Positions 7,427-38,360 of a stretch of DNA of 38,903 nt are shown piece after piece. A program made the position numbers and the translations under genes. The stretch is from Deltaproteobacteria bacterium. Lineage in GTDB: Bacteria > Myxococcota_A > Polyangia > HGW-17 > SLPX01. The notes under the pieces are model-generated. The model did not search any database, was not told where the DNA came from, and worked only from the letters and a program-made list of their open reading frames with translations. Location: assembly GCA_021162935.1 (NCBI GenBank), contig JAGGXR010000027.1:1-38903 (forward strand). The letters are read 5' to 3'. How positions within the stretch are numbered: the stretch's first letter is position 1; the number at the start of each line of letters is the position of its first letter.

Positions 7427-7489
7427 AGATGACAGAATTATTGATCGGTGGCATCAAATAGAGATGACAGAATTATTGAGCGGTGGCAT
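7427..7489 (+). repeat. 28-bp direct repeat upstream of Cys-rich lipoprotein gene
   Basis: Two copies of a 28-base element (7427-7454 and 7462-7489, 35-bp period) differ at one position. The core reads ATGACAGAATTATTGA followed by CGGTGGCAT. The copies are AT-rich against a GC-rich background. They sit before, or at the annotated start of, the next gene. This would suit paired binding sites for a regulator or a recent duplication. The period is not a multiple of three, so the repeat was not built as protein. Confidence 0.75.
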
Positions 7490-9928
7490 AATGACCTCGT
7501 ATTGAGTGGAGTGACCACAGGGTTCGTCCCAGCAAAGAAAGGTGCATTTGTTTTGAGAGCAACAGAGCGATTTGGACACAACGCGTGGAGGCGTTTGCTG
7601 CGAGATTTGGGGTTTTTGTCATGGTTTGGCTTCATAGCACTGGCGTTTTGGGGAGGCTGTACCAAGAATGCGCCGGGCGGCGGTACGCTGCCCGACGGCG
7701 GTTTGGATGCCCAAGCGAAAGATGCGGGAGACGCAGGGGATACTCTGTGTGGCAATGGCATGGTCGATGAAGGAGAGACCTGCGATATCGGCATTGTTGC
7801 CGGCGACCCAGGGGCCTGTCCGACCACCTGCGATACGACAGAACCCTGTGAGACGGTGTTTTTGTCGGGCAGGGACTGTCAGGCCCATTGCGTGGTCGGT
7901 CATATCACGAACAACATCGATCACGATGGCTGCTGTCCTCCCGGCAGCGATCGGACCTTGGATTCGGATTGTGCCATTCAATGTGGAAATGGCGCCGTCG
8001 AGCCGGGCGAGACGTGTGACCCTCCGTCGAGTTGTCCCACGAGTTGCGATGACGACGATGCCTGTACCATCGATATGATGACGGGCAGCGCAGAGACCTG
8101 TGACGCGACCTGCACGCATGAACCGATAACGTCCTGCACGAATGGGGACGGCTGTTGTCCCGTCCGGTGCGACGCCGTGTCCGATTCGGACTGTTCAGCA
8201 GTGTGTCCCAATGGCGTGGTGGAGCAGGGAGAGACCTGTGACCCGCCATCGAGTTGCCCGACGAGCTGCGACGACGGAGACGTCTGCACCATGGATCGAA
8301 TGGCGGGCAGTGCCGAGACGTGCAGCGCCACCTGCATCAACCAGCCGATCACGACCTGCACGGATGGGGACGGCTGCTGTCCGAGCACGTGCAATTCGCT
8401 CAATGACGACGATTGTACCGCCGAATGCAGCAACGGCGTGGTCGAGCAGGGAGAGACGTGCGATCCGCCTTCGAGCTGTCCGACGGACTGCGACGACGGA
8501 GATGTGTGCACCGCAGACACGATGACCGGGAGTTCGCAGAACTGCAACGTGGCCTGCCAGCACCAGACGATCGCGACCTGTACCAATGGAGATGGCTGCT
8601 GTCCGAGCACGTGCAATTCGCTCAATGACACCGATTGTTCGCCTGATTGTGGAAACGGAGTCGTCGAGCAGGGAGAGACGTGCGATCCGCCTTCGAGCTG
8701 TCCGACGGACTGCGACGACGGAGATGTGTGTACCGCAGACACGATGACCGGGAGCTCGCAGAACTGCAACGTGGCCTGCCAGCACCAGCCGATCGCGACC
8801 TGTACCAATGGAGATGGCTGCTGTCCGAGCACGTGCAATTCGCTCAATGACGACGACTGCTCGCCTCATTGTGAAAACGGAGTCGTCGAGCAGGGAGAGA
8901 CGTGCGATCCGCCTTCGAGCTGTCCGACGGACTGCGACGACGGAGATGTGTGCACCACAGACACGATGACCGGGAGTGCGCAGAATTGTGACGTGGCCTG
9001 CCAGAACCAGGCGATCACGACCTGCACGAATGGGGACGGCTGTTGCCCGTCCGGATGCGATGCGGTTACGGATACCGACTGTTCATCTGTGTGCGGCAAT
9101 AACGTGGTCGAACCGGGCGAGCAGTGCGACGACGGAAACGTGACGCCCGGTGATGGGTGTGATGGGAATTGTCAGAACGAAGGGCCGGTGGTCACGGCGT
9201 TTCGGATCGACTGGATGGAGTTGCGTGATCCGCACATTTTTCTCCGCATTTTATTTAGCTGCTACGATGTGACGGATTCCGCTCCCTTCGGCCAGCAATC
9301 GGTCAATGAACAGCTCAACGACGACATACAAAACGACGTGGATGGCGACGGCTACCTGGAACTGAGCCTGCTGTTTCTCATCCGCCCGCTGGATCAGTCG
9401 TCCTCCTATTCGGGGCCGGTGGATATCGGCAACGCGTTGTGCACCTCGCCCATGTCCACGACGACTTGTGACGTGGACCCGACCGCCCCGATGGAGTCGA
9501 CGACCTATGCGAACCAGGGTTCTGGGACCTGCCTATCGCCGTATGCCGGGACCACGTCTGGGTATTCTCCTGGCATCACGGAGCCGACGGCACCTCCGGT
9601 CTGCTACATCACGGGAGGGACGACGATTACGTTGATGCTGGGTGGAACTCCGGTGACGTTTCACGATGCGAGACTTGCGGCGGTCTATTCGGGGGATCCT
9701 GCGACCTCGATGATCGATGGTGTCATAGCCGAATTCATCACGGAGACCGATGCACAGAATACGATGCTCGACCTCGGCGCACTCGGTACGAAGTCGCTGT
9801 CGGACCTGCTACAGCCTGATGCCTGTGGTGCCGGAGACGACATGGACGTCGGGTTGGATGGGTCGACTCCTGGTTGGTGGTTCTATTTGAACTTTACTGC
9901 TGTGCCAGTCACATGGGTGGGACAATAA
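7448..9928 (+). CDS. Cys-rich repeat lipoprotein with unknown C-terminal domain
   Basis: This is a predicted surface lipoprotein. A hydrophobic segment ends in FWGGC, a weak lipobox, followed by a Gly/Asp/Ala linker. Seven Cys-rich units follow, from about residue 100. Most begin like CSNGVVEQGETCDPPSSC and end in NGDGCCPS; the last is a classic Myxococcus-type repeat (CGNNVVEPGEQCDDGN). The last ~245 residues form a separate domain I do not recognise. The start is uncertain. The longest frame begins at GTG 7448 inside the 28-bp repeat, which would put ~50 residues before the signal segment. A TTG at about 7553 or a nearby codon is likelier to be used. The gene is probably cotranscribed with the hydrolase gene 1 nt downstream. 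Cys pairs probably form disulfides outside the cell. Confidence 0.8.
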   Translation: MASNRDDRIIERWHNDLVLSGVTTGFVPAKKGAFVLRATERFGHNAWRRLLRDLGFLSWFGFIALAFWGGCTKNAPGGGTLPDGGLDAQAKDAGDAGDTLCGNGMVDEGETCDIGIVAGDPGACPTTCDTTEPCETVFLSGRDCQAHCVVGHITNNIDHDGCCPPGSDRTLDSDCAIQCGNGAVEPGETCDPPSSCPTSCDDDDACTIDMMTGSAETCDATCTHEPITSCTNGDGCCPVRCDAVSDSDCSAVCPNGVVEQGETCDPPSSCPTSCDDGDVCTMDRMAGSAETCSATCINQPITTCTDGDGCCPSTCNSLNDDDCTAECSNGVVEQGETCDPPSSCPTDCDDGDVCTADTMTGSSQNCNVACQHQTIATCTNGDGCCPSTCNSLNDTDCSPDCGNGVVEQGETCDPPSSCPTDCDDGDVCTADTMTGSSQNCNVACQHQPIATCTNGDGCCPSTCNSLNDDDCSPHCENGVVEQGETCDPPSSCPTDCDDGDVCTTDTMTGSAQNCDVACQNQAITTCTNGDGCCPSGCDAVTDTDCSSVCGNNVVEPGEQCDDGNVTPGDGCDGNCQNEGPVVTAFRIDWMELRDPHIFLRILFSCYDVTDSAPFGQQSVNEQLNDDIQNDVDGDGYLELSLLFLIRPLDQSSSYSGPVDIGNALCTSPMSTTTCDVDPTAPMESTTYANQGSGTCLSPYAGTTSGYSPGITEPTAPPVCYITGGTTITLMLGGTPVTFHDARLAAVYSGDPATSMIDGVIAEFITETDAQNTMLDLGALGTKSLSDLLQPDACGAGDDMDVGLDGSTPGWWFYLNFTAVPVTWVGQ
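7982..9091 (+). repeat. 222-bp tandem repeats, five units, in coding sequence
   Basis: The first cysteine codon of each unit falls at 7982, 8204, 8426, 8648, 8870 and 9092, an exact 222-bp (74-codon) period for five full units. Units 3 to 5 are nearly identical at DNA level, including synonymous positions, which points to recent duplication or gene conversion. Copy number is likely to vary between strains. Confidence 0.9.
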
Positions 9929-20377: not shown

Positions 20378-23300
20378 ATGGTGAGACAGAAAATTTGGCT
20401 GCTGTGTGGCGTGTTCGGTATGGCCGTGGCAACCTGGGCCTGCGGTGATTCGGGTAGTTCCGGTGGTGGCACGGGCGAATCGACGGCCACGGCCTGCCAG
20501 GACGCCCAGGACAACGACGGCGACGGCCAGACGGACTGCGACGATACGGATTGCCAGGGCTTCGTGTTCTGCGAGGCAGTTGCGGAAGACACGGCCACGG
20601 CCTGCCAGGACACCCAGGACAACGACGGCGATGGCCAGACGGACTGTGACGATACGGACTGCCAGGGCTTCGTGTTCTGCGCGACCGTGACGGAAGACAC
20701 GGCCATGGCGTGCCAGGACGGCCAGGACAACGACGACGACGGCGACACGGACTGCGACGATACGGACTGCCAGGGCTTCGTGTTTTGTCAGAGTCCGTCG
20801 GAGGCTACCTCAACGGCGTGTCAGGACGGTCAGGACAACGACAACGACGGCCAGACCGACTGTTCGGACCCGGACTGCCAGGGCTTCGTGTTTTGCCAGT
20901 CTGACGAGAGCACGTCGGCTCTCTGTCAGGATAGCCTGGACAACGACAACGACGGCTACACCGACTGCGCGGATCCAGACTGCCAGGGCTTCGTGTTTTG
21001 TTATTCGCTGGAAGAAACCACGGCGTTCACCTGTCAAGACGGTCAGGACAACGACAACGATGGGCTGACGGACTGCGACGACACGGATTGTCAGGGTTTC
21101 GTCTTTTGTCAGTCTGTGGAGTCCACGTCGGCTGCCTGTCAGGACGGTCAGGACAACGACAACGACGGCGACACGGATTGTGCCGACACGGATTGCCAGG
21201 GGTTTGTGTTCTGCCAGGCGGAGGAGTCGACCGCATCGGCCTGTCAGGATGGTCAGGACAATGACAGCGACGGTCAAACGGATTGCGACGACACGGATTG
21301 CCAGGGTTTCGTCTTCTGTCAGTCCGAGGAATCGACATCGGCAGCCTGTCAGGACGGCCAGGACAATGACAGCGACGGTCAAACGGATTGCGACGATCCG
21401 GATTGCCAGGGTTTCGTCTTCTGTTTGGCTGGTGGCGAGGATTCCTACTCGCTGTGCAAAGATGGTCGCGATAATGATAGCGACGGTCAAACCGACTGCG
21501 ACGACACCGATTGCTGGCACTGGTCCTACTGCCAGCATTACAACGGGTATCCGGTGGTGGATGCCTGGAACGAGACCTGGGACGGAATCGAGCGCGGCGC
21601 GGCAACCTGGGCCGAAGCCAAGGCCACATGCGAGGCGCTCGGAGGTCGGCTGCCCACCATTACGGAACTGTATCGCAACAATGCAACGACGGGCACGGGA
21701 AACCTGTCCGACAGTTCCGCGACGAACTATCTGTGGACCCTCATAGCCTGCCATTCGGCGAATGCCAGGACGACCGTGAGGCTGAGCAACGGGCAGGTCT
21801 CGTATACGGCTGAGACAGCATCGTTGCATTATCGATGCGTGTGGCCGGATTCAGAGGGGGCAGGGTTCGACGAGTACCGGTGCTATGGGGATCCCACCGA
21901 GCCCTGTTGGTCGTTTGGTCACGTGTGGAACTTGGATCAATGGGACCGGCCTGCCGTCACCTACGCGGCGGCCGTCAATGAGTGCGCGTTCTACGGAGCA
22001 AGCATCCCAGTGGTTGCGGAATGGGGCGATGTCATCCACAAGGGCGTGCCGCACACAACGAACAACTGGCTCTGGGCGGGCAACGCCATGTACTGGTACA
22101 ATGGTGGTTACGGTCAGGCGATTGTGCGTTGGACCGACCAGACGGCCGAGAACTGGTCGTATCGCTCTTCTACGTTTGGATCGCTTTCAGGGGGAACTTC
22201 GGCTCAGCGTTTTCGGTGCGTCGGATTGGCCGATCCGAGCAGTTTTCAGCCAACGAACTCGACCTGCACGGGTGGATGTTTCGCGGCGTCGGATCGCCGG
22301 TCTCCCATCGTGGCCGACTCACAGGATCGGGTGGCCACTCGCATGGCGGTTGCAGTCGAAGACTGCCGAGACGAGGACGGCGATCTGGCCAACGAAGCGG
22401 ATTTCACCGAGTTGGTCCACGAGGGCTGGCCCGGAGGCACGAATGCCTGGAATTGGCTGTCGGATCCCTTGTATTGGTACAGCAATGGCTACGGAAACGC
22501 CCTGGCTAAGTGGTCCTCGGCGGGAGTCGAATCCTGGTACTGGTCGTCTACGACCGGCGCCCGATCCGCAGCCTCTTCGAATCGGGCCTATCGGTGTATC
22601 TGGAGGGCGATGGGGCCGGCAGTTCCCACATGTAGCGCTACCAATATCGTGACCTGGACAGGAACCCTGTACGAGTGTTCATCTGGTGCTCCCGGTACTT
22701 CGAACAACCAGGCGAACGTGATCGAGATCGTTGATGATTGGGGCAATGCCTGGGATGGCATCCAGAGGGACCATCTTCCTTACGACGAGGCGAAGTCACA
22801 GTGCGAATCGCTGGGCGGTCGTCTGCCGACAGCCACGGAAATCTGGGCCGTTCGGTCGAGCAGCAATCCACACAATTCGATTGGCGACGTCACGTCCACG
22901 AGTTATCTGTGGACCAAGATGGCGACTGGAGATGCGGGACGCCGGGCGGTCGTGCGCATTTCCGACGGTGCTTCGACCAATTCTCAAACTTCGACCGCCC
23001 AATATTATCGATGCATCTGGCCGTCGCGTCGCGGTGACGTCCTGGCCAAGAACAACTGCTACGGACCTCCTGGAGACGAGTGTTTCAGAACCAGCGATGG
23101 TCTGATCGCCGACAGCTACGACCGCGTGGCCCTGGATGCGGCGACGGCCATCAGCGAATGCCTCGCCAGTGGCGGGCATTTGGCCGATCATCGAGAGGCC
23201 ATTCGTTTGATTCACAGTGGTTGGCCGAACGGTGAGAACCAGTGGCTGTGGCTGAACGAGCCGATGTATTGGTACAGCAACAACTACGGGTACCCGCTGA

Positions 23301-23407
23301 TGCGTTGGAGCGGCGACGGACCGGCCGACTGGGAGTACAGCACGGGCATGTCGAGCCCCACGAATCTGCGCCGCTTCCGTTGCGTCTACGACCAGCGACT
23401 GCGGTAG
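20378..23407 (+). CDS. Large surface lipoprotein: ten acidic Cys repeats plus five C-terminal modules
   Basis: The 1009-residue product starts with a signal whose lipobox-like end is ATWAC (Cys22), after a strong AGGAGGTG ribosome site. Residues ~40-385 are ten 35-36-residue units with the core CQDGQDNDNDGQTDCDD, followed by TDCQGFVFC. The Asp/Asn pattern resembles calcium-binding loops (thrombospondin type-3-like or dockerin-like). The C-terminal ~620 residues hold five modules of two kinds. Type A contains EALGGRLPTITEL, as in DUF1566/Lcl-type domains. Type B contains DRVAxxAAxxxC...WLW...YWY and ends with RFRCV. The order is A-B-B-A-B. Function is unknown; adhesion to a surface or prey cell is plausible. 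Confidence 0.8.
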   Translation: MVRQKIWLLCGVFGMAVATWACGDSGSSGGGTGESTATACQDAQDNDGDGQTDCDDTDCQGFVFCEAVAEDTATACQDTQDNDGDGQTDCDDTDCQGFVFCATVTEDTAMACQDGQDNDDDGDTDCDDTDCQGFVFCQSPSEATSTACQDGQDNDNDGQTDCSDPDCQGFVFCQSDESTSALCQDSLDNDNDGYTDCADPDCQGFVFCYSLEETTAFTCQDGQDNDNDGLTDCDDTDCQGFVFCQSVESTSAACQDGQDNDNDGDTDCADTDCQGFVFCQAEESTASACQDGQDNDSDGQTDCDDTDCQGFVFCQSEESTSAACQDGQDNDSDGQTDCDDPDCQGFVFCLAGGEDSYSLCKDGRDNDSDGQTDCDDTDCWHWSYCQHYNGYPVVDAWNETWDGIERGAATWAEAKATCEALGGRLPTITELYRNNATTGTGNLSDSSATNYLWTLIACHSANARTTVRLSNGQVSYTAETASLHYRCVWPDSEGAGFDEYRCYGDPTEPCWSFGHVWNLDQWDRPAVTYAAAVNECAFYGASIPVVAEWGDVIHKGVPHTTNNWLWAGNAMYWYNGGYGQAIVRWTDQTAENWSYRSSTFGSLSGGTSAQRFRCVGLADPSSFQPTNSTCTGGCFAASDRRSPIVADSQDRVATRMAVAVEDCRDEDGDLANEADFTELVHEGWPGGTNAWNWLSDPLYWYSNGYGNALAKWSSAGVESWYWSSTTGARSAASSNRAYRCIWRAMGPAVPTCSATNIVTWTGTLYECSSGAPGTSNNQANVIEIVDDWGNAWDGIQRDHLPYDEAKSQCESLGGRLPTATEIWAVRSSSNPHNSIGDVTSTSYLWTKMATGDAGRRAVVRISDGASTNSQTSTAQYYRCIWPSRRGDVLAKNNCYGPPGDECFRTSDGLIADSYDRVALDAATAISECLASGGHLADHREAIRLIHSGWPNGENQWLWLNEPMYWYSNNYGYPLMRWSGDGPADWEYSTGMSSPTNLRRFRCVYDQRLR
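20495..21540 (+). repeat. 105/108-bp tandem repeats, ten units, in coding sequence
   Basis: The unit-opening cysteine codon recurs at 20495, 20603, 20711, 20819, 20924, 21032, 21137, 21242, 21347 and 21455, alternating 108- and 105-bp steps. Neighbouring units share long identical stretches. The array is a candidate for copy-number variation without frame loss. Confidence 0.88.
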
Positions 23408-28901: not shown

Positions 28902-30188
28902 ATGACCGAAGGGATCCAGGGCAATGAGTTCCTCAAACTCGTCCCCCCCCTGCAGGCGTTGAAGGTGCTGTCGGAATTCGGCGGACTGGAGCCGGAGGCC
29001 GCCGAGGTCGCTGACGCGGTGGGGCGGGTTCTGGCCGAATCGGTCGTGGTGCCTCATGACTATCCGCCCTTCGATCGGGCGACGGTGGACGGCTATGCCG
29101 TCCGGTCGCTGGACGTACAGGGAGCCAGCAACGGAGTTCCAGCGACGCTCGAGAGCATTGGCCGCATCGAGGCGGGGCGGGTCTTCGATGGCCGTGTGGG
29201 GCCGGGCCAAGCCTTGGCCGTGCCCACGGGCGGGGTCCTGCCTCGGGGCGCGGATGCCGTGGTCATGGTCGAGGACACGGCCGAGGTGGCGGGTGGACTG
29301 GTGGAGGTGTACCGAGCCGCCGGTGTGGGGCGCAACGTCCTGCATCGTGGCGAGGACGCTGGCGAGGGCCAGATTCTGCTCGTCGCGGGAACCAGGCTCA
29401 GGTCGCATCACATCGGGGCGCTCTGCGGGCTCGGAATCGGGACGGCCTCCGTGGTGCGCCGGCCCGTGGTCGGTGTTCTGGCCACGGGCAACGAAATCGT
29501 GTCTCCGGACCAGGAACCGGGTCCCGGCCAGATCCGCGACGTGAACCAACATGCCATGGCGGCTGCTGTGGAGAGCCGTGGTTGGCGCGCCATCCGTGGG
29601 GGTATCGTTCCCGATCGGCTGGATGAATTAACGGCGTCGGTCGCGGGGTTGCTCAGCGACTGTGACGTGGTGCTCTTGTCCGGGGGGAGTTCCGTGGGCG
29701 TGCGGGACCTGACGGCAACGGCCTTGGAGCGGCTCGGGGGTAGGATTTTGTTTCATGGGGTCGCGGTGAAGCCGGGGAGACCGACCATCTGCGCCATGGT
29801 CAATGGGAAGCCTGTGTTCGGCATGCCGGGACATCCCGTGTCGAGCGCCGTCTCGTTCGAGTTGTTCGTTGCGCCCTTGCTTCGGAGCATCGAGGGAGAA
29901 GTTTTTGGCCTCGGGGAGATGGACGTTCGCTCTTGGCCCGATGCCAGGATGTGGCCCACGAGGCAACGGGCCTTGTTGGCTCGGAGAGTGGCTTCGGTGC
30001 CAGGCAGAGACGAGTTCATCCGGGTGCGCCTGCGCCGGGATGCGCAGGATCGGTGGATGGCGGATCCCGTTCCCGGAGATTCGTCGGTGCTCACCTCCGT
30101 GGTGTCCGCCCATGGCTTGGTTCGACTTCCGGCCGGGCTCGAAGGTCTGGAGGCCGGATCGGAGGTCGAGGTGCTTACATATGGCTAG
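28902..30188 (+). CDS. moeA: Molybdopterin molybdotransferase MoeA
   Basis: MoeA inserts molybdate or tungstate into adenylylated molybdopterin to finish the cofactor. The 428-residue product has the family's four-domain layout. Visible pieces are PPFDRATVDGYAV (the usual form is P-FDNSAMDGYA), PTGGVLPRGADAVVMVED, ATGNEIV, LLSGGSSVGVRD and GMPGHPVSS near the C-terminal beta-barrel domain. The Ser/Met positions of the first motif are changed to Ala/Val, a mild oddity. It follows the 718-residue gene by 18 nt. Its stop codon overlaps the start of the substrate-binding lipoprotein gene by 8 nt, which implies translational coupling. Confidence 0.92.
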   Translation: MTEGIQGNEFLKLVPPLQALKVLSEFGGLEPEAAEVADAVGRVLAESVVVPHDYPPFDRATVDGYAVRSLDVQGASNGVPATLESIGRIEAGRVFDGRVGPGQALAVPTGGVLPRGADAVVMVEDTAEVAGGLVEVYRAAGVGRNVLHRGEDAGEGQILLVAGTRLRSHHIGALCGLGIGTASVVRRPVVGVLATGNEIVSPDQEPGPGQIRDVNQHAMAAAVESRGWRAIRGGIVPDRLDELTASVAGLLSDCDVVLLSGGSSVGVRDLTATALERLGGRILFHGVAVKPGRPTICAMVNGKPVFGMPGHPVSSAVSFELFVAPLLRSIEGEVFGLGEMDVRSWPDARMWPTRQRALLARRVASVPGRDEFIRVRLRRDAQDRWMADPVPGDSSVLTSVVSAHGLVRLPAGLEGLEAGSEVEVLTYG

Positions 30189-32019
30189 GCTCAGAAGCTT
30201 GAAACGTGCGTTCATTGTTCGGACCAAAGGACGATCGTCGAGCGCCATGTTGGTGTGGCTTGTTTCGATGCTGATGCTCTTGGCGGGCTGTCATCCCGGG
30301 GCGCGAGGCCAGAGGTTGCCACGGGCGCAGGTGGCTGCCGGCGGTCTTCTGCGGGTTCGGTTGGCCTGGGAGCCTCGACCCCTCAATCCGGTGTTCAACA
30401 GTGATATCCGCGCCTGGCGCATGTTCTTCCCGTCCGTGCTCGAACCACTCGTCGATTTGGAACCCGAGAACGGAAAGGTGCGGGGCCGGCTCGTGACCTC
30501 CTGGTCGGAGAAACGGACGAAGGGCGGCGGGCAGGTGTGGCGTCTGGAACTGCGGCGTGGGGTACATTGGCACGACGGTCGGCCCCTGACAGCCGAAGAC
30601 GTGAAATTCACGCTCGATCTCGCTGGTGGCAAGAGGCCGAGTAAGTGGCTCGTGGGCAGTGACATGGACTCGATTGGGTTGCCCGTCGGCGACGTGCGTG
30701 TCCTGGATCCTTTGGAGGTCGAGGTTCGCCTCGACAAGGCGGATCCGGATTTCCTGGCACGACTGGCCCGGTTCCCCGTGGTTTCCAAGCACCAACTGAT
30801 GGACTGTGGCGGCATTCGGTCCTGCACCCGTGTTTTGGACCAGCCGATCGGGACCGGGCCTCTCCGGTTGGTTCAGTGGTGGCCGGGCAAGAAAGTGCTT
30901 TTGGAGAGGAACAAGGCTTACTGGGGACCGGCTGCTACCATCGATGCCTTGGAGTATCGGTTCATCCCGAGCACGGCCGAGTCGATTGCCGCCCTCAAGC
31001 GGGGAGATGTGGACGTGGTCGCCGGCTGGAGCAGCAGGGACTGGATTCGTCTTGCTCCCGAGCTGCTGCGTGAGCGGGAGGGCTTCCGCAAGGTGTTGGC
31101 CCAGCCTCACGGCATGGTGCTCCTCGTCGTCTATGGGCCCATGGAGTCGGCAGCACGCCCGGTGAGACAGGCCATTGGACATCTCATCGACCGGCAGGTC
31201 CTGACCCAGATTTTTCCATGGGGAGCCGGGCCGTTCATTTCGGGCCCCGTCAGCCACGACAGTGCGCAGCAGCGTCAGTTTCGCCATGCGGTCTCCCATG
31301 ATGCAGCGTTGGCTGGTAGGCTTTTCGAGCAGGCAGGTTGGAAGATGACCCTTCGTGGGATCATGCGGGAATTTGGACGCGACCTGGTGGAGACCGTCTT
31401 GATCCCAGCCGGTTCCATGGGAGCCAGGTTGGCCTGGGAGAAAATGGTTCCTCTGTTCCGCAAAGCGGGCGTCAGGCTCAAGCTCGTCGAAGTGACCGCG
31501 GCCCAATATCGCTGGTCTGGGATCGTATCGAGCAGTTCCAGATCGTCGTATTCGAAGATCGTGCTGGTGTACGAGACGGCACCCTCGACCATTGGATTCG
31601 AATCCTTCTTGTCACCAAAGATGCTGGACGTGATCCGTAAAAAGTTGGGGCTTCCCGTGCAGGCCAGGACTGCAGTGCCGCGAAGGGGGCGTCGTGTCAT
31701 TCGGATCGCGCATCGTCACGTTTCAAGATTGGATGTCGTGGCAGCGGGCAAGGCGGCGATGGATGAGGGGGTCGTGGTTCCTTTGTTTGCTCCGACTTTG
31801 CCGGTAGTCGCCTCCTGCCGCGTCAGGTCCCTTCCTCGCGGGGGCCTGTGGTTTCGGTTCGACCGGGTTCGTCTCGTGGCCGGGTGTCCTCGGTCGAAGG
31901 CACATAAACGCGTGTATCGGCCTCGGCGGTCGATGGCTCGCAAGGCAATGATCAAGCCTCGACGGTCGAACGCACGAGAGCGAGTGAACGGAGCTCGACG
32001 GTCGAACGCACGAGAGTGA
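30181..32019 (+). CDS. Peptide-type ABC transporter substrate-binding lipoprotein
   Basis: Family 5 solute-binding protein (DppA/OppA-like), 612 residues. A signal ends in MLLAGC, a good lipobox. The conserved start of the mature domain (WEPRPLNPVF), the HWHDGRPLTAEDVKFTLDL segment, the GTGPLRLVQWWPG segment and the LKRGDVDVVAG segment are all family landmarks. The ligand is usually an oligopeptide or nickel/haem. No permease or ATPase genes are in the window, so it may serve a transporter elsewhere or act alone. The ATG at 30181 overlaps the moeA stop by 8 nt; an internal ATG at 30247 is possible. The C-terminus is an odd basic tail made by the 36-bp repeat (RRSNARERVNGA). Confidence 0.85.
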   Translation: MARLRSLKRAFIVRTKGRSSSAMLVWLVSMLMLLAGCHPGARGQRLPRAQVAAGGLLRVRLAWEPRPLNPVFNSDIRAWRMFFPSVLEPLVDLEPENGKVRGRLVTSWSEKRTKGGGQVWRLELRRGVHWHDGRPLTAEDVKFTLDLAGGKRPSKWLVGSDMDSIGLPVGDVRVLDPLEVEVRLDKADPDFLARLARFPVVSKHQLMDCGGIRSCTRVLDQPIGTGPLRLVQWWPGKKVLLERNKAYWGPAATIDALEYRFIPSTAESIAALKRGDVDVVAGWSSRDWIRLAPELLREREGFRKVLAQPHGMVLLVVYGPMESAARPVRQAIGHLIDRQVLTQIFPWGAGPFISGPVSHDSAQQRQFRHAVSHDAALAGRLFEQAGWKMTLRGIMREFGRDLVETVLIPAGSMGARLAWEKMVPLFRKAGVRLKLVEVTAAQYRWSGIVSSSSRSSYSKIVLVYETAPSTIGFESFLSPKMLDVIRKKLGLPVQARTAVPRRGRRVIRIAHRHVSRLDVVAAGKAAMDEGVVVPLFAPTLPVVASCRVRSLPRGGLWFRFDRVRLVAGCPRSKAHKRVYRPRRSMARKAMIKPRRSNARERVNGARRSNARE

Positions 32020-32045
32020 GTGAACGGAACTCGACGGTCGAACGC
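31958..32045 (+). repeat. 36-bp tandem repeat spanning a stop codon and the next gene's leader
   Basis: The unit CTCGACGGTCGAACGCACGA starts at 31958 and 31994, and a partial copy starts at 32030, giving a 36-bp period. It encodes the last residues of the substrate-binding protein. In the second unit GCGAGTGA became GTGAGTGA, which creates both the stop (TGA 32017-32019) and an overlapping GTG start (32016). Confidence 0.8.
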
Positions 32046-32090
32046 TCGATAGCGGGCGGACGGGCCGTGACGAGGCGGATGAGGTTCGCC

Positions 32091-34010
32091 ATGGCGAAAC
32101 GGAAGGCATATCTGGACATGACCACGGTGGCCGAGGCGCTCGAACGCCTCTGGTCGGCCCTAGGCGACGGACGCAGCGGCGAAGAAAGGGTTTCTGTGAC
32201 CGAGGCGCTTGGGCGGGTCACGAGCAGACCAGTGCTGGCGGTAACGAGCAGCCCGTCCTATCGGGCGGCTGCGATGGATGGGGTTGCCGTTCGGGCAGCG
32301 GATACGGATGGAGCGAGCGAGCTGCGGCCCGTGACGCTTCGGGTCGGAGAGCAGGCCATTGACGTGGACACGGGCGACGTGGTCCCTGACGGTTTCGATG
32401 CGGTGATCATGGCCGAAGACGTCTGGCCGGGAGAGGATGACACCACGGTCGTCGCTTCTGCTCCTGTGAGCCGATGGCAGCACGTGCGCCAGGTGGGAGA
32501 GGACGTGGTCCAGGGCGAGATGGTTTTGTCCTCGGCGCTCAGACTCGAACCGAGGCATCTGGCCGTGGCCCTCGCCGCGGGTCATCTGGACCTGTGGGTC
32601 CGGGTCCATCCCTGCCTGGGCATCATCCCGACGGGGGACGAGTTGGTGGAGCCGGGGCCGAACGTACGCCCGGGCGAGGTGGCTGAGTTCAACTCCAAGA
32701 TGCTCGCCGCCATGCTCGAACAGTGGGGCGGTAGGCCGGTCGTCTATGCCTCGGTTCCCGACGATCGGGGGCGCATCCAGGCGGCCGTGGAACGGGCACT
32801 TGCAGAATGCGACGCGGCGCTCGTGCTGGCCGGTTCGTCGGCTGGTCGCGAGGACTACACGGCCTCGGTCCTCTCGACCCTCGGGAAGCTCCTGGTCCAC
32901 GGGGTGAACATCATGCCGGGCAAGCCCACGGCTTTGGCCGTGGTGGCGGGAAAGCCCGTGTTCGGCATCCCAGGGTATCCGGTGTCTGCATCCGTATCCG
33001 CTGACACGTTCGTCGGTCCCTGGATAGCGAAGCGTCTCGGCCTGGCCGCTTCAAAGCGACCGAAGTTGACCGCGCGCCTGGCCCGGAAGGTTCCGTCCAA
33101 GGCTGGCCATCGCGAGGTGGTGCGCGTCGTGGCGGCTCAGGTCGGCCAGGACATCGTGGCGCTTCCCCTCGCCCGGGGGGCAGGCGTCATTTCGTCATTG
33201 AGTCGTGCGACTGGGCTTGTGACCTTCGACGAGCACGACGAGGGGGCCCCTGCCGGCGAATCCGTCGTCGTGGAACTGCTCGTGACCAGGGACCAGGTGG
33301 CGCGGACCCTGCTCCACGTGGGCAGCCACGATCTCGCCCTGGACCTGGTGGCCGAGCTGCTGCGTCGTCTCCACCCAGGCTGGGACATGGTATCGGCAAG
33401 CGTGGGCAGCATGGCGGGCCTTGCCGCCCTGGCCGGGCACAGCGCCCACTTGGCAGGGACTCACCTGTTGGACGCCCCGACCGGAACCTACAACGTGGCC
33501 GCCCTGCGTCGTGTCCTGCCCGACAGACCCACGCTGCTCGTTCGCCTCGCCCTGCGTGAGCAGGGGCTCTACCTGCCTAAGAAAAACCCCAAGCGCATCG
33601 GCTCGATTGCGGACCTGGCTCGGGACGACGTGACCATTGCGAATCGTCAGCCGGGGTCTGGGACCCGGGTCCTGCTCGACCATCTCCTGGCCGGCGAGCA
33701 CATCGATCCGGCCTCCGTGGCTGGCTACGACCGGATCGAATCCACCCACAGCGCTTCGGCCGAGGCGGTCCGCAGCGGCGCCGTGGATACGGCTCTCGGG
33801 ATACGACTTGCCGCTACGGCTCTTGGCCTGGACTTCGTGCCCCTGGCCGAGGAGCCCTATGAATTGGCCATTCCGTTGGACCTGCTCGACGACCCGGCGG
33901 TGACCCGGTTCCTGACGGCGTTGCGCCACAAGGACCTTCGGGGCCAACTCGATCGGCTGGACGGCTATCGTCCCGAGCGGACAGGAGAGGAAATTGCTCG
34001 GGTCGAATAG
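32091..34010 (+). CDS. MoeA fused to a periplasmic-binding-protein-like domain
   Basis: A second, diverged MoeA (639 residues from this start). The MoeA half carries SYRAAAMDGVAV, VPDGFDAVIMAEDVW, PTGDELVEPG, LVLAGSSAGREDYT and GIPGYPVSAS. From about residue 400 a domain of the PBP-like class found at the end of archaeal and some bacterial MoeA proteins follows. Its landmarks are GSHDLALDLVAELL, GSMAGLAAL, GTYNVAALR, ANRQPGSGTR and the final LIxxxxFVPLAEEPYELAIP-type ending. The domain may sense or deliver the metal oxyanion. I chose the ATG at 32091, preceded by GAGG six bases away; GTG 32016, in the repeat, would add 25 basic residues. Two MoeA paralogues could divide Mo and W insertion, which is inference. 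Confidence 0.88.
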   Translation: MAKRKAYLDMTTVAEALERLWSALGDGRSGEERVSVTEALGRVTSRPVLAVTSSPSYRAAAMDGVAVRAADTDGASELRPVTLRVGEQAIDVDTGDVVPDGFDAVIMAEDVWPGEDDTTVVASAPVSRWQHVRQVGEDVVQGEMVLSSALRLEPRHLAVALAAGHLDLWVRVHPCLGIIPTGDELVEPGPNVRPGEVAEFNSKMLAAMLEQWGGRPVVYASVPDDRGRIQAAVERALAECDAALVLAGSSAGREDYTASVLSTLGKLLVHGVNIMPGKPTALAVVAGKPVFGIPGYPVSASVSADTFVGPWIAKRLGLAASKRPKLTARLARKVPSKAGHREVVRVVAAQVGQDIVALPLARGAGVISSLSRATGLVTFDEHDEGAPAGESVVVELLVTRDQVARTLLHVGSHDLALDLVAELLRRLHPGWDMVSASVGSMAGLAALAGHSAHLAGTHLLDAPTGTYNVAALRRVLPDRPTLLVRLALREQGLYLPKKNPKRIGSIADLARDDVTIANRQPGSGTRVLLDHLLAGEHIDPASVAGYDRIESTHSASAEAVRSGAVDTALGIRLAATALGLDFVPLAEEPYELAIPLDLLDDPAVTRFLTALRHKDLRGQLDRLDGYRPERTGEEIARVE

Positions 34011-36881: not shown

Positions 36882-38360
36882 ATGTCGTTGACCAATGGGA
36901 GCATGAAAATGACATCGACCAATGGGGGCATGAAAATGACATCGAACAACGGACAGGGACTCAAGGAACTCACCCTTACGGTGACCGAATCCTGCAACCA
37001 GCGGTGCAAGTATTGCTACGTTCCGTTGAATCGCGGCCGTCAGATGGACTTCGATGTGGCTCGGGCCGCCGTGGATCTGTTTTTCGAGCATGCTCGGTCT
37101 GAGGGTACGTTGACCATCGCCTTTTTCGGGGGCGAGCCGTTTCTCGCCGTGGACTTGATGCGACGGGTCGCGGAGTACGCGCTGAGCGTCGCGTCTGACC
37201 CCGGTCGGATCCAATTTGCCGTGACCACGAACGGGACGGCCATCGACGACGCAGGCTGGGCGTTCATCGACGAGTTCGACATGCGCGTGGCGGTGAGCTA
37301 CGACGGCGACCGGGGCCAGGCGTTTCGGCCGCTGGCCCAGGGAGGCAGTTCGAGACATCGGTTCAACCGGAACCTTCCGAAACTGCTGACCGCTTCGGCG
37401 GGAAAGCAAGACGGTCGCTCCTTGGCCCGCATGACGGTCACGCCGGACAACGTGGCTCATCTGGCGGATAACGTTCGGTCCACGTTCCGGGCCGGCTTCG
37501 AGCGGATTCTTTTCCTTCCCGACATCGAGGTGGATTGGGATCCTGCCGCCCTGCGTCAGTGGCGGCGTCAGCAGGAGCGACTCCTGACCTGGTTCGTGGG
37601 GCGGCAGGGCGCTGGCAGGCCAATCCCAGATTTGATGGCCTGGACCGGGGTGCTGTCTCGATTGAGCGGTGCACGGCGCGGCCATTGCGGAGCGGGCGTG
37701 AGTCAGGTGGCCGCATCGCCTGATGGAACGTTTTACGCGTGTTACCGCGCCGTCTATGACCCTCACGACGAGGATATCCAACTGGGCAACGTGACGGAAG
37801 GGTTTACCCATCCGGAGCGATGGGCACGGTACGCTGAGTTGGACCCGAACCGGGTGCGACCAGAGACTGGAGATTGTGCGACCTGTTCGGCGAGAGACGG
37901 CTGCGGCTTTTTCTGCCCGGCTCAAGGGCATTTGGCCACCGGCGATCTGGCGTCGGTCCCGGCCGTTGTCTGTGAGTTGACCAGGATTCAGGTGGATGTG
38001 TGTCGTCGTCTCGTCCGCAGTGCCAAACCAACAAAGCGTCGGTCTCGGTTCGCCGTTGCTGCTGCGGCCGCCGCAGCCGTTCTCGGAACCAGCCTGGCCG
38101 TTGGAGCCGGCTGCGACCGAGGGGTGGGCACGGGCGGCAATCAGGACGCCGGACCAGACGGATCGGCTGCCGGGCTGTGCCCTGTTTTCGTCGATGGAGG
38201 CCACGACGGAACTGTGGATGGGGAGGTGGACAGCGGATACCTGCCGGGGCTCTGCGCCATCTATCCCGACGCAGACGTGGACAGCGGATACAGCCCAGGT
38301 CTTTGCCCGCAGCCGATGGACGGCGGCGAGCCGGATGGACCACCGCCAGGCTTGTGCTAG
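36882..38360 (+). CDS. Radical SAM/SPASM peptide-maturase-like protein with fused GLC-repeat tail
   Basis: The 492-residue frame starts with a radical SAM core whose cluster ligands are Cys38, Cys42 and Cys45 (CNQRCKYCY), followed by FFGGEPF and TTNG. A SPASM domain with auxiliary-cluster cysteines at 269, 287, 332, 335, 341, 345 and 364 follows. This is the layout of anaerobic sulfatase-maturase and peptide-modifying enzymes. After KPTKRRSR the chain enters an Ala-rich hydrophobic segment (389-410) ending in GAGC, like a lipoprotein signal, then an acidic Gly/Pro/Asp tail. Four Gly-Leu-Cys motifs lie at 431, 456, 473 and 490, the last at the C-terminus; the final three are 17 residues apart. 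I infer a maturase fused to a substrate-like peptide. The start is ambiguous (ATG 36882, 36903 or 36930). Confidence 0.82.
   Translation: MSLTNGSMKMTSTNGGMKMTSNNGQGLKELTLTVTESCNQRCKYCYVPLNRGRQMDFDVARAAVDLFFEHARSEGTLTIAFFGGEPFLAVDLMRRVAEYALSVASDPGRIQFAVTTNGTAIDDAGWAFIDEFDMRVAVSYDGDRGQAFRPLAQGGSSRHRFNRNLPKLLTASAGKQDGRSLARMTVTPDNVAHLADNVRSTFRAGFERILFLPDIEVDWDPAALRQWRRQQERLLTWFVGRQGAGRPIPDLMAWTGVLSRLSGARRGHCGAGVSQVAASPDGTFYACYRAVYDPHDEDIQLGNVTEGFTHPERWARYAELDPNRVRPETGDCATCSARDGCGFFCPAQGHLATGDLASVPAVVCELTRIQVDVCRRLVRSAKPTKRRSRFAVAAAAAAAVLGTSLAVGAGCDRGVGTGGNQDAGPDGSAAGLCPVFVDGGHDGTVDGEVDSGYLPGLCAIYPDADVDSGYSPGLCPQPMDGGEPDGPPPGLC
36891..36944 (+). repeat. 27-bp direct repeat duplicating ribosome site and start codon
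   Basis: Two 27-base units (36891-36917 and 36918-36944) each contain a GGGAGC or GGGGGC stretch just before ATGAAAATG. Read in frame they give SMKMTSTNG and GMKMTSNNG. The duplication offers several start sites for the radical SAM protein; the downstream one (36930) keeps the whole conserved domain. Confidence 0.7.

Follow-up and report, generated by a model that had tools for sequence, protein, structure and literature searches.

The precursor in a radical SAM RiPP pathway is as a rule a peptide of its own, recognised through a leader and an RRE, and the substrate of QhpD, the maturase of quinohemoprotein amine dehydrogenase, is likewise a separate subunit that is modified in trans. Among the SPASM enzymes closest to the one described here, PapB acts on CX3D, joining its Cys to the Asp beta carbon, tolerates CXnD with n = 0–6 but not Asp placed before Cys, and has been suggested to be able to cross-link virtually any leader-tethered Cys…Asp sequence (PMC9413430). 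QhpD forms Cys-Asp and Cys-Glu thioethers inside a protein (PMC8326336), and Tte1186 joins Cys32 to Thr37 (PMC8172795).

The gene that we analysed lies near the end of the window, by which we mean the whole 38,903-nt stretch of DNA, and is arranged differently. A preliminary description of this DNA had claimed that one frame joins a complete radical SAM core and SPASM domain to a tail, and this was borne out: a single ATG…TAG frame of 492 codons runs without interruption (Table 1), CX3CX2C is present in the radical SAM core together with GGEP at residues 83–86, and the SPASM pattern is complete (Cys269, 287, 332, 335, 341, 345 and 364). The tail proved, as described, to be acidic (D+E = 14, K+R = 1 over residues 411–492), about 80 residues long and furnished with four GLC motifs (at 431, 456, 473 and 490, spacings 25, 17 and 17), the last of which is the C-terminus. 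In the AlphaFold2 model (mean pLDDT 77.5) the enzyme domain is predicted with confidence, residues 385–406 form a helix and the tail is disordered, and structure comparison of this model placed CteB (5WHY, E 2.3e-24) as the nearest solved fold. At the extreme 5' end of the gene, a 27-bp tandem repeat (36890-36949) encodes TNGSMKMTS and supplies several in-frame ATGs; since the orthologues lack this repeat, the true start may lie further downstream.

Table 1 Coordinates of the fused gene, its parts and the associated features (positions in the window unless a contig is named)
Feature	Position	Strand	Evidence
Proposed maturase-precursor fusion gene, 492 aa	36882..38360	+	Open frame; orthologues in 7 further genomes, 39-47% identity
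Radical SAM core, residues 27-200	36960..37481	+	Pfam PF04055 E 6e-12; AF2 pLDDT mostly >90
CX3CX2C of radical SAM core, Cys38/42/45	36993-37016	+	
SPASM domain, residues 269-364, 7/7 Cys	37686..37973	+	Weak Pfam SPASM (E 0.04); Cys kept in 54-sequence alignment
Basic n-region KRRSR, residues 385-389	38034..38048	+	Basic residues before hydrophobic segment in 8/8 orthologues
Signal-anchor-like hydrophobic segment, residues 390-410, and lipobox-like Cys411	38049..38114	+	Segment closes with Cys, -1 = G/A/S, in 8/8 orthologues; AF2 helix 385-406
Precursor-like acidic tail, residues 411-492, predicted disordered	38112..38357	+	pLDDT <50 for 405-492
Core motif 1, CPVFVD, C433-D438, predicted thioether	38178..38195	+	CX4D conserved; chemistry by analogy with PapB
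Core motif 2, CAIYPD, C458-D463, predicted thioether	38253..38270	+	CX4D conserved; chemistry by analogy with PapB
Core motif 3, CPQPMD, C475-D480, predicted thioether	38304..38321	+	CX4D conserved; chemistry by analogy with PapB
Terminal GLC, truncated repeat, Cys is last residue	38349..38357	+	C-terminal G[LI]C in 8/8 fused orthologues
217-bp tandem repeat at contig end	38485..38880	.	TRF
Methyltransferase orthologue of the same genome	C80:355-1095	minus	Profile match

The same fused architecture was detected in seven more genomes (loci L022–L028), giving eight of the 318 genomes searched in the same myxobacterial class, and in none of a 379-genome sample of the wider phylum outside the class. 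Fused members score at least 398 bits against the family profile and everything else at most 227; one fused member is split across two overlapping contigs, which score 399 and 252 bits. The fused orthologues form one clade (SH-aLRT 99, seven of the eight placed in the tree), mostly in draft assemblies, and the matches on viral contigs are distant unfused relatives only. An artefact of annotation or assembly, in which a missed stop or frameshift joins two genes, had been named as what could undo the preliminary description, and the gene does sit near the edge of its contig, in a draft assembly with 168 contigs, but the in-frame fusion recurs in seven independent assemblies, which rules such an artefact out and leaves it a next to negligible probability. 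Production of the tail from an internal start was likewise rejected, as no start codon shortly before the hydrophobic segment is common to the orthologues. One fused orthologue (L072, G213:C64, 9053-10558 (+)) lacks the second auxiliary-cluster half of SPASM, the loss is in frame, and the missing stretch was not found in the other two reading frames.

Comparison of the eight orthologous tails showed that GLC, which had been taken as the motif, is present as repeats but belongs to a longer conserved unit, [PG]-G-[LVI]-C-P-x-x-x-D, which replaces GLC as the sole motif. After the lipobox Cys, Gly occupies position -2 at 40/40 tail Cys, with P, G or A at -3. Among the 30 internal Cys with enough downstream sequence, Asp stands at +5 in 25 and at +4 in five (two of these also at +5, three at +4 only), so that 28 conform to CX4D or CX3D; the remaining two are CPAEMPxD units, both in genome G013, with CX6D-like spacing. 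The 25 CX4D compare with 4.6 expected, and 25 was reached in 0 of 20,000 within-tail shuffles; the three CX4D of the 492-aa protein's tail alone give a shuffle p of 0.002. All eight proteins terminate in G[LI]C, whilst the number of repeats differs between tails. The homologous tails are thus far from random sequence, and the suggestion of a precursor fused to its maturase stands insofar as a repeat-bearing, precursor-like tail is truly fused and conserved in eight genomes, though the conserved unit is not GLC alone.

PapB was the top NCBIfam model for the 492-aa protein and for the three orthologues tested (174–206 bits), with 188 bits for the 492-aa protein, below the curated cut-off of 340, and QhpD was among the top five models for each of these four proteins. 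As a positive control, the unfused PapB-like genes of Paenibacillus ottowii and Corallococcus carmarthensis adjoin small ORFs with CxxCD (CX3D). Because the relatives PapB and QhpD join Cys to Asp, C433-D438, C458-D463 and C475-D480 are the predicted links, whilst Cys492, which has no Asp downstream, is probably free, making a role for the terminal GLC as cross-link donor unlikely. Against the overall reading proposed below count the PapB score below cut-off, a spacing of CX4D and not the CX3D of PapA, and the tail of G013, whose units are all CX6D-like. The SPASM enzyme might instead modify the tail by other chemistry, forming an alpha-carbon sactionine or a link to Pro, Tyr or another residue: SPASM maturases are chemically diverse, other SPASM families also score on the fused proteins, and Pro follows the tail Cys at +1 in 23/32 cases. 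We think this quite improbable, since Asp is the sole near-invariant residue at a fixed downstream distance and both PapB and QhpD join Cys to Asp. Modification by the SPASM enzyme of its own fused tail is the most economical reading of these sequences, because eight genomes keep both the tail fusion and the motif, and the nearest characterised relatives make Cys-Asp thioethers. Two other loci with PapB-like radical SAM genes were seen: on an IMG/VR contig (L177, 4515-5005 (+)) two overlapping CxxC-rich ORFs precede such a gene, and in a Lachnospiraceae genome (L137, 4008-4851 (+)) a protein of 281 aa lies near one, its CSGxC repeats holding dozens of Cys.

The hydrophobic segment between enzyme and tail (residues 390–411) ends in G-A-G-C411. 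A charged n-region, a hydrophobic h-region and a Cys with a small -1 residue are found in all eight orthologues, but -3 is not Leu, Val or Ile in any of them, at which point the segment departs from a lipoprotein signal, and the signal is internal, beginning at residue 390, not N-terminal as in bacterial lipoproteins. The earlier wording of a lipobox-like segment therefore holds for the segment and Cys411, and not for position -3, where Gly makes the lipobox a loose one. A tail that is acidic, Cys-bearing and placed behind a signal-anchor-like segment could also be an unmodified membrane anchor or surface domain, its Cys/Asp repeats disulfide-bonded (the internal Cys could pair in the periplasm) or metal-binding, with the enzyme acting on some other substrate. 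This we judge unlikely: the fixed Cys-to-Asp register with Gly at -2 matches the targets of the enzyme's relatives, the repeat number varies among orthologues as in a RiPP core, the neighbourhoods of the fused genes yielded no second small ORF with repeated GxC-X3-4-D, and the tail is made in the cytoplasm, the compartment that a radical SAM enzyme requires.

The check for a split form that the preliminary description had proposed gave two matches. The first is a 216-aa substrate-only paralogue (G214:C46) in a genome that also holds a full fused gene; its CX3CX2C core and SPASM domain are lost in frame, residues matching ~182–251 and the hydrophobic segment are kept, and its tail carries CPVLID, CAEVPD and GGLCK, with the CX4D motifs in frame. 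Its pairwise dN/dS (0.34 in the retained scaffold, 0.10 in the signal) disfavours free decay, and the paralogue may be a substrate modified in trans. In the second case (G263:C105), the enzyme is an unfused relative, and the ORF after it, which runs off the contig, encodes a leader of ~50 residues, then a hydrophobic stretch that closes with VVAGC, then CADDPCA repeats. This ORF is a predicted precursor of its own, with a lipoprotein-like signal lying inside it. A tail-profile search of the class for separate tails returned only the fused genes, the G214 paralogue, one ambiguous ORF (G030) and chance-level matches, whilst a search with the G263 leader returned only G263 itself, the remainder being chance. 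The ambiguous G030 ORF (L289, G030:C32, 6856-7174 (-)) is short, with GICPV.., GGGICPVMLVTPDA, GGGICAVAAPD and a terminal GGICY; it overlaps another reading frame, and a radical SAM gene is absent from the 8.7 kb examined.

A class I methyltransferase gene (Methyltransf_25) lies directly downstream of the fused gene in seven of seven orthologues; the two genes converge in six of these and are co-directional in the seventh, and the orthologue neighbourhoods compared have no other shared neighbours. Its orthologue is confined to exactly the eight fused-gene genomes among the 318 (at least 327 bits vs 195 for the next best). The best NCBIfam model is daptide methyltransferase (77 bits vs a cut-off of 175) and the top match among solved structures is 9ri2, whose name is uninformative. 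In the present genome the orthologue is on a different contig, C80, at whose start stands a sequence related to the 217-bp repeat at the end of the fused gene's contig; it is the best match to that repeat outside the window. Because of this, the two genes are probably adjacent here too, split by the repeat, a dispersed element that probably breaks the assembly. Related copies of it were seen elsewhere in the genome, on six or more further contigs (among them C80, C51, C69, C154, C35 and C104). An anti-phage role was considered and set aside, the PADLOC matches being generic (viperin core, Mad2 methyltransferase region). Elsewhere in the window we noted a secreted-looking 1009-aa protein (20378-23407 (+)), whose N-terminal part has ~10 repeats of a unit like ATACQDGQDNDGDGQTDCDDTDCQGFVFC, an 826-aa lipoprotein-like protein (7448-9928 (+)) with Cys-rich repeats (NGVVEQGETCDPPSSCPTxCDDGDVCT...), and two nearby MoeA-like genes (28902-30188 and 32016-34010 (+)), the second with, by eye, a C-terminal substrate-binding-like extension.

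We consider it likely, from these comparisons and by analogy with characterised relatives, that the gene encodes a ranthipeptide-like RiPP system that modifies itself, a single polypeptide serving as both maturase and precursor, whose tail is cross-linked and then exported. Starting from what is directly supported, namely the architecture, motif conservation, family kinship, single clade and methyltransferase linkage, we infer the chemistry, step order, export, cleavage, lipidation and biological role. The enzyme would be synthesised with its substrate attached, needing no leader or RRE, and in the cytoplasm its radical SAM/SPASM domain would link every internal Cys of the tail with the Asp at +5, acting in cis or between the partners of a dimer, and so yield three S-Cbeta thioethers at the predicted sites (-2 Da each). 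Segment 390–411 could then act as an internal signal-anchor or lipoprotein-like signal, N-in/C-out, such that the modified tail crosses the inner membrane, and a cut in front of Cys411 would detach it from the enzyme, leaving a peptide held by a lipid anchor. A further modification probably comes from the dedicated methyltransferase, with Asp or the C-terminal Cys as possible sites. Counting against this reading are also the absence of Leu at -3, the half-SPASM of G213, the disordered tail of the AlphaFold2 model and the need to pass an already cross-linked tail through Sec. The fullest version, in which an auto-modifying fusion cross-links its own tail and releases it at the internal lipoprotein signal, the product being a methylated lipopeptide with thioether rings that is anchored at the surface, would give the fused borosins their first counterpart among radical SAM enzymes; it is a possibility that we put forward tentatively and would not bet on.

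The preliminary description knew of no described system with this architecture, and the open-access literature searched yielded no radical SAM enzyme fused to its precursor, although one may be described elsewhere. Genome mining for separate small precursors overlooks such fused systems. With a tethered substrate, no RRE-sized region and a core behind an internal signal, recognition, action in cis versus trans and export of a cross-linked peptide become testable in one polypeptide, and the fusion offers a tethered scaffold for cyclic peptide production.

The closest family, PapB/PapA (freyrasin), shares with the fusion repeated Cys-Xn-Asp sites and a SPASM maturase with two auxiliary cluster sites, but PapA, a small peptide with its own leader, is separate from the enzyme, whereas here the putative precursor is the C-terminus of the enzyme, with X4 spacing and an internal signal before the core. 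A Paenibacillus PapB-like protein has ~80 extra N-terminal residues, whereas the fused orthologues have only ~18–37 residues N-terminal of CX3CX2C and no RRE-sized region; unfused myxobacterial relatives also lack one, so its absence is not unique to the fusion. Measured against ranthipeptides, the tail has the repeated Cys-Xn-Asp sites of such a precursor (28/30 internal Cys), and a separate precursor gene with an RRE-bound leader is replaced by the fusion. QhpD is a related SPASM enzyme that also makes its Cys-Asp/Glu thioethers inside a protein, but is without a tail. The SCIFF maturases CteB and Tte1186 provide the closest solved fold (5WGG/5WHY), CteB forms thioethers and Tte1186 also has X4 spacing, yet these enzymes differ in an N-terminal RRE, a separate precursor and a Thr acceptor. 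In the fused borosins (OphMA, types I-III), the modifying enzyme bears and modifies its own C-terminal core (PMC8429565; PMC11285071), and the present protein matches them in architecture, with the tail as its presumed core. They differ in being alpha-N-methyltransferases and not radical SAM/SPASM enzymes, in having no membrane signal and in their fungal prototype, and the likeness is an analogy in the logic of the architecture, without homology.
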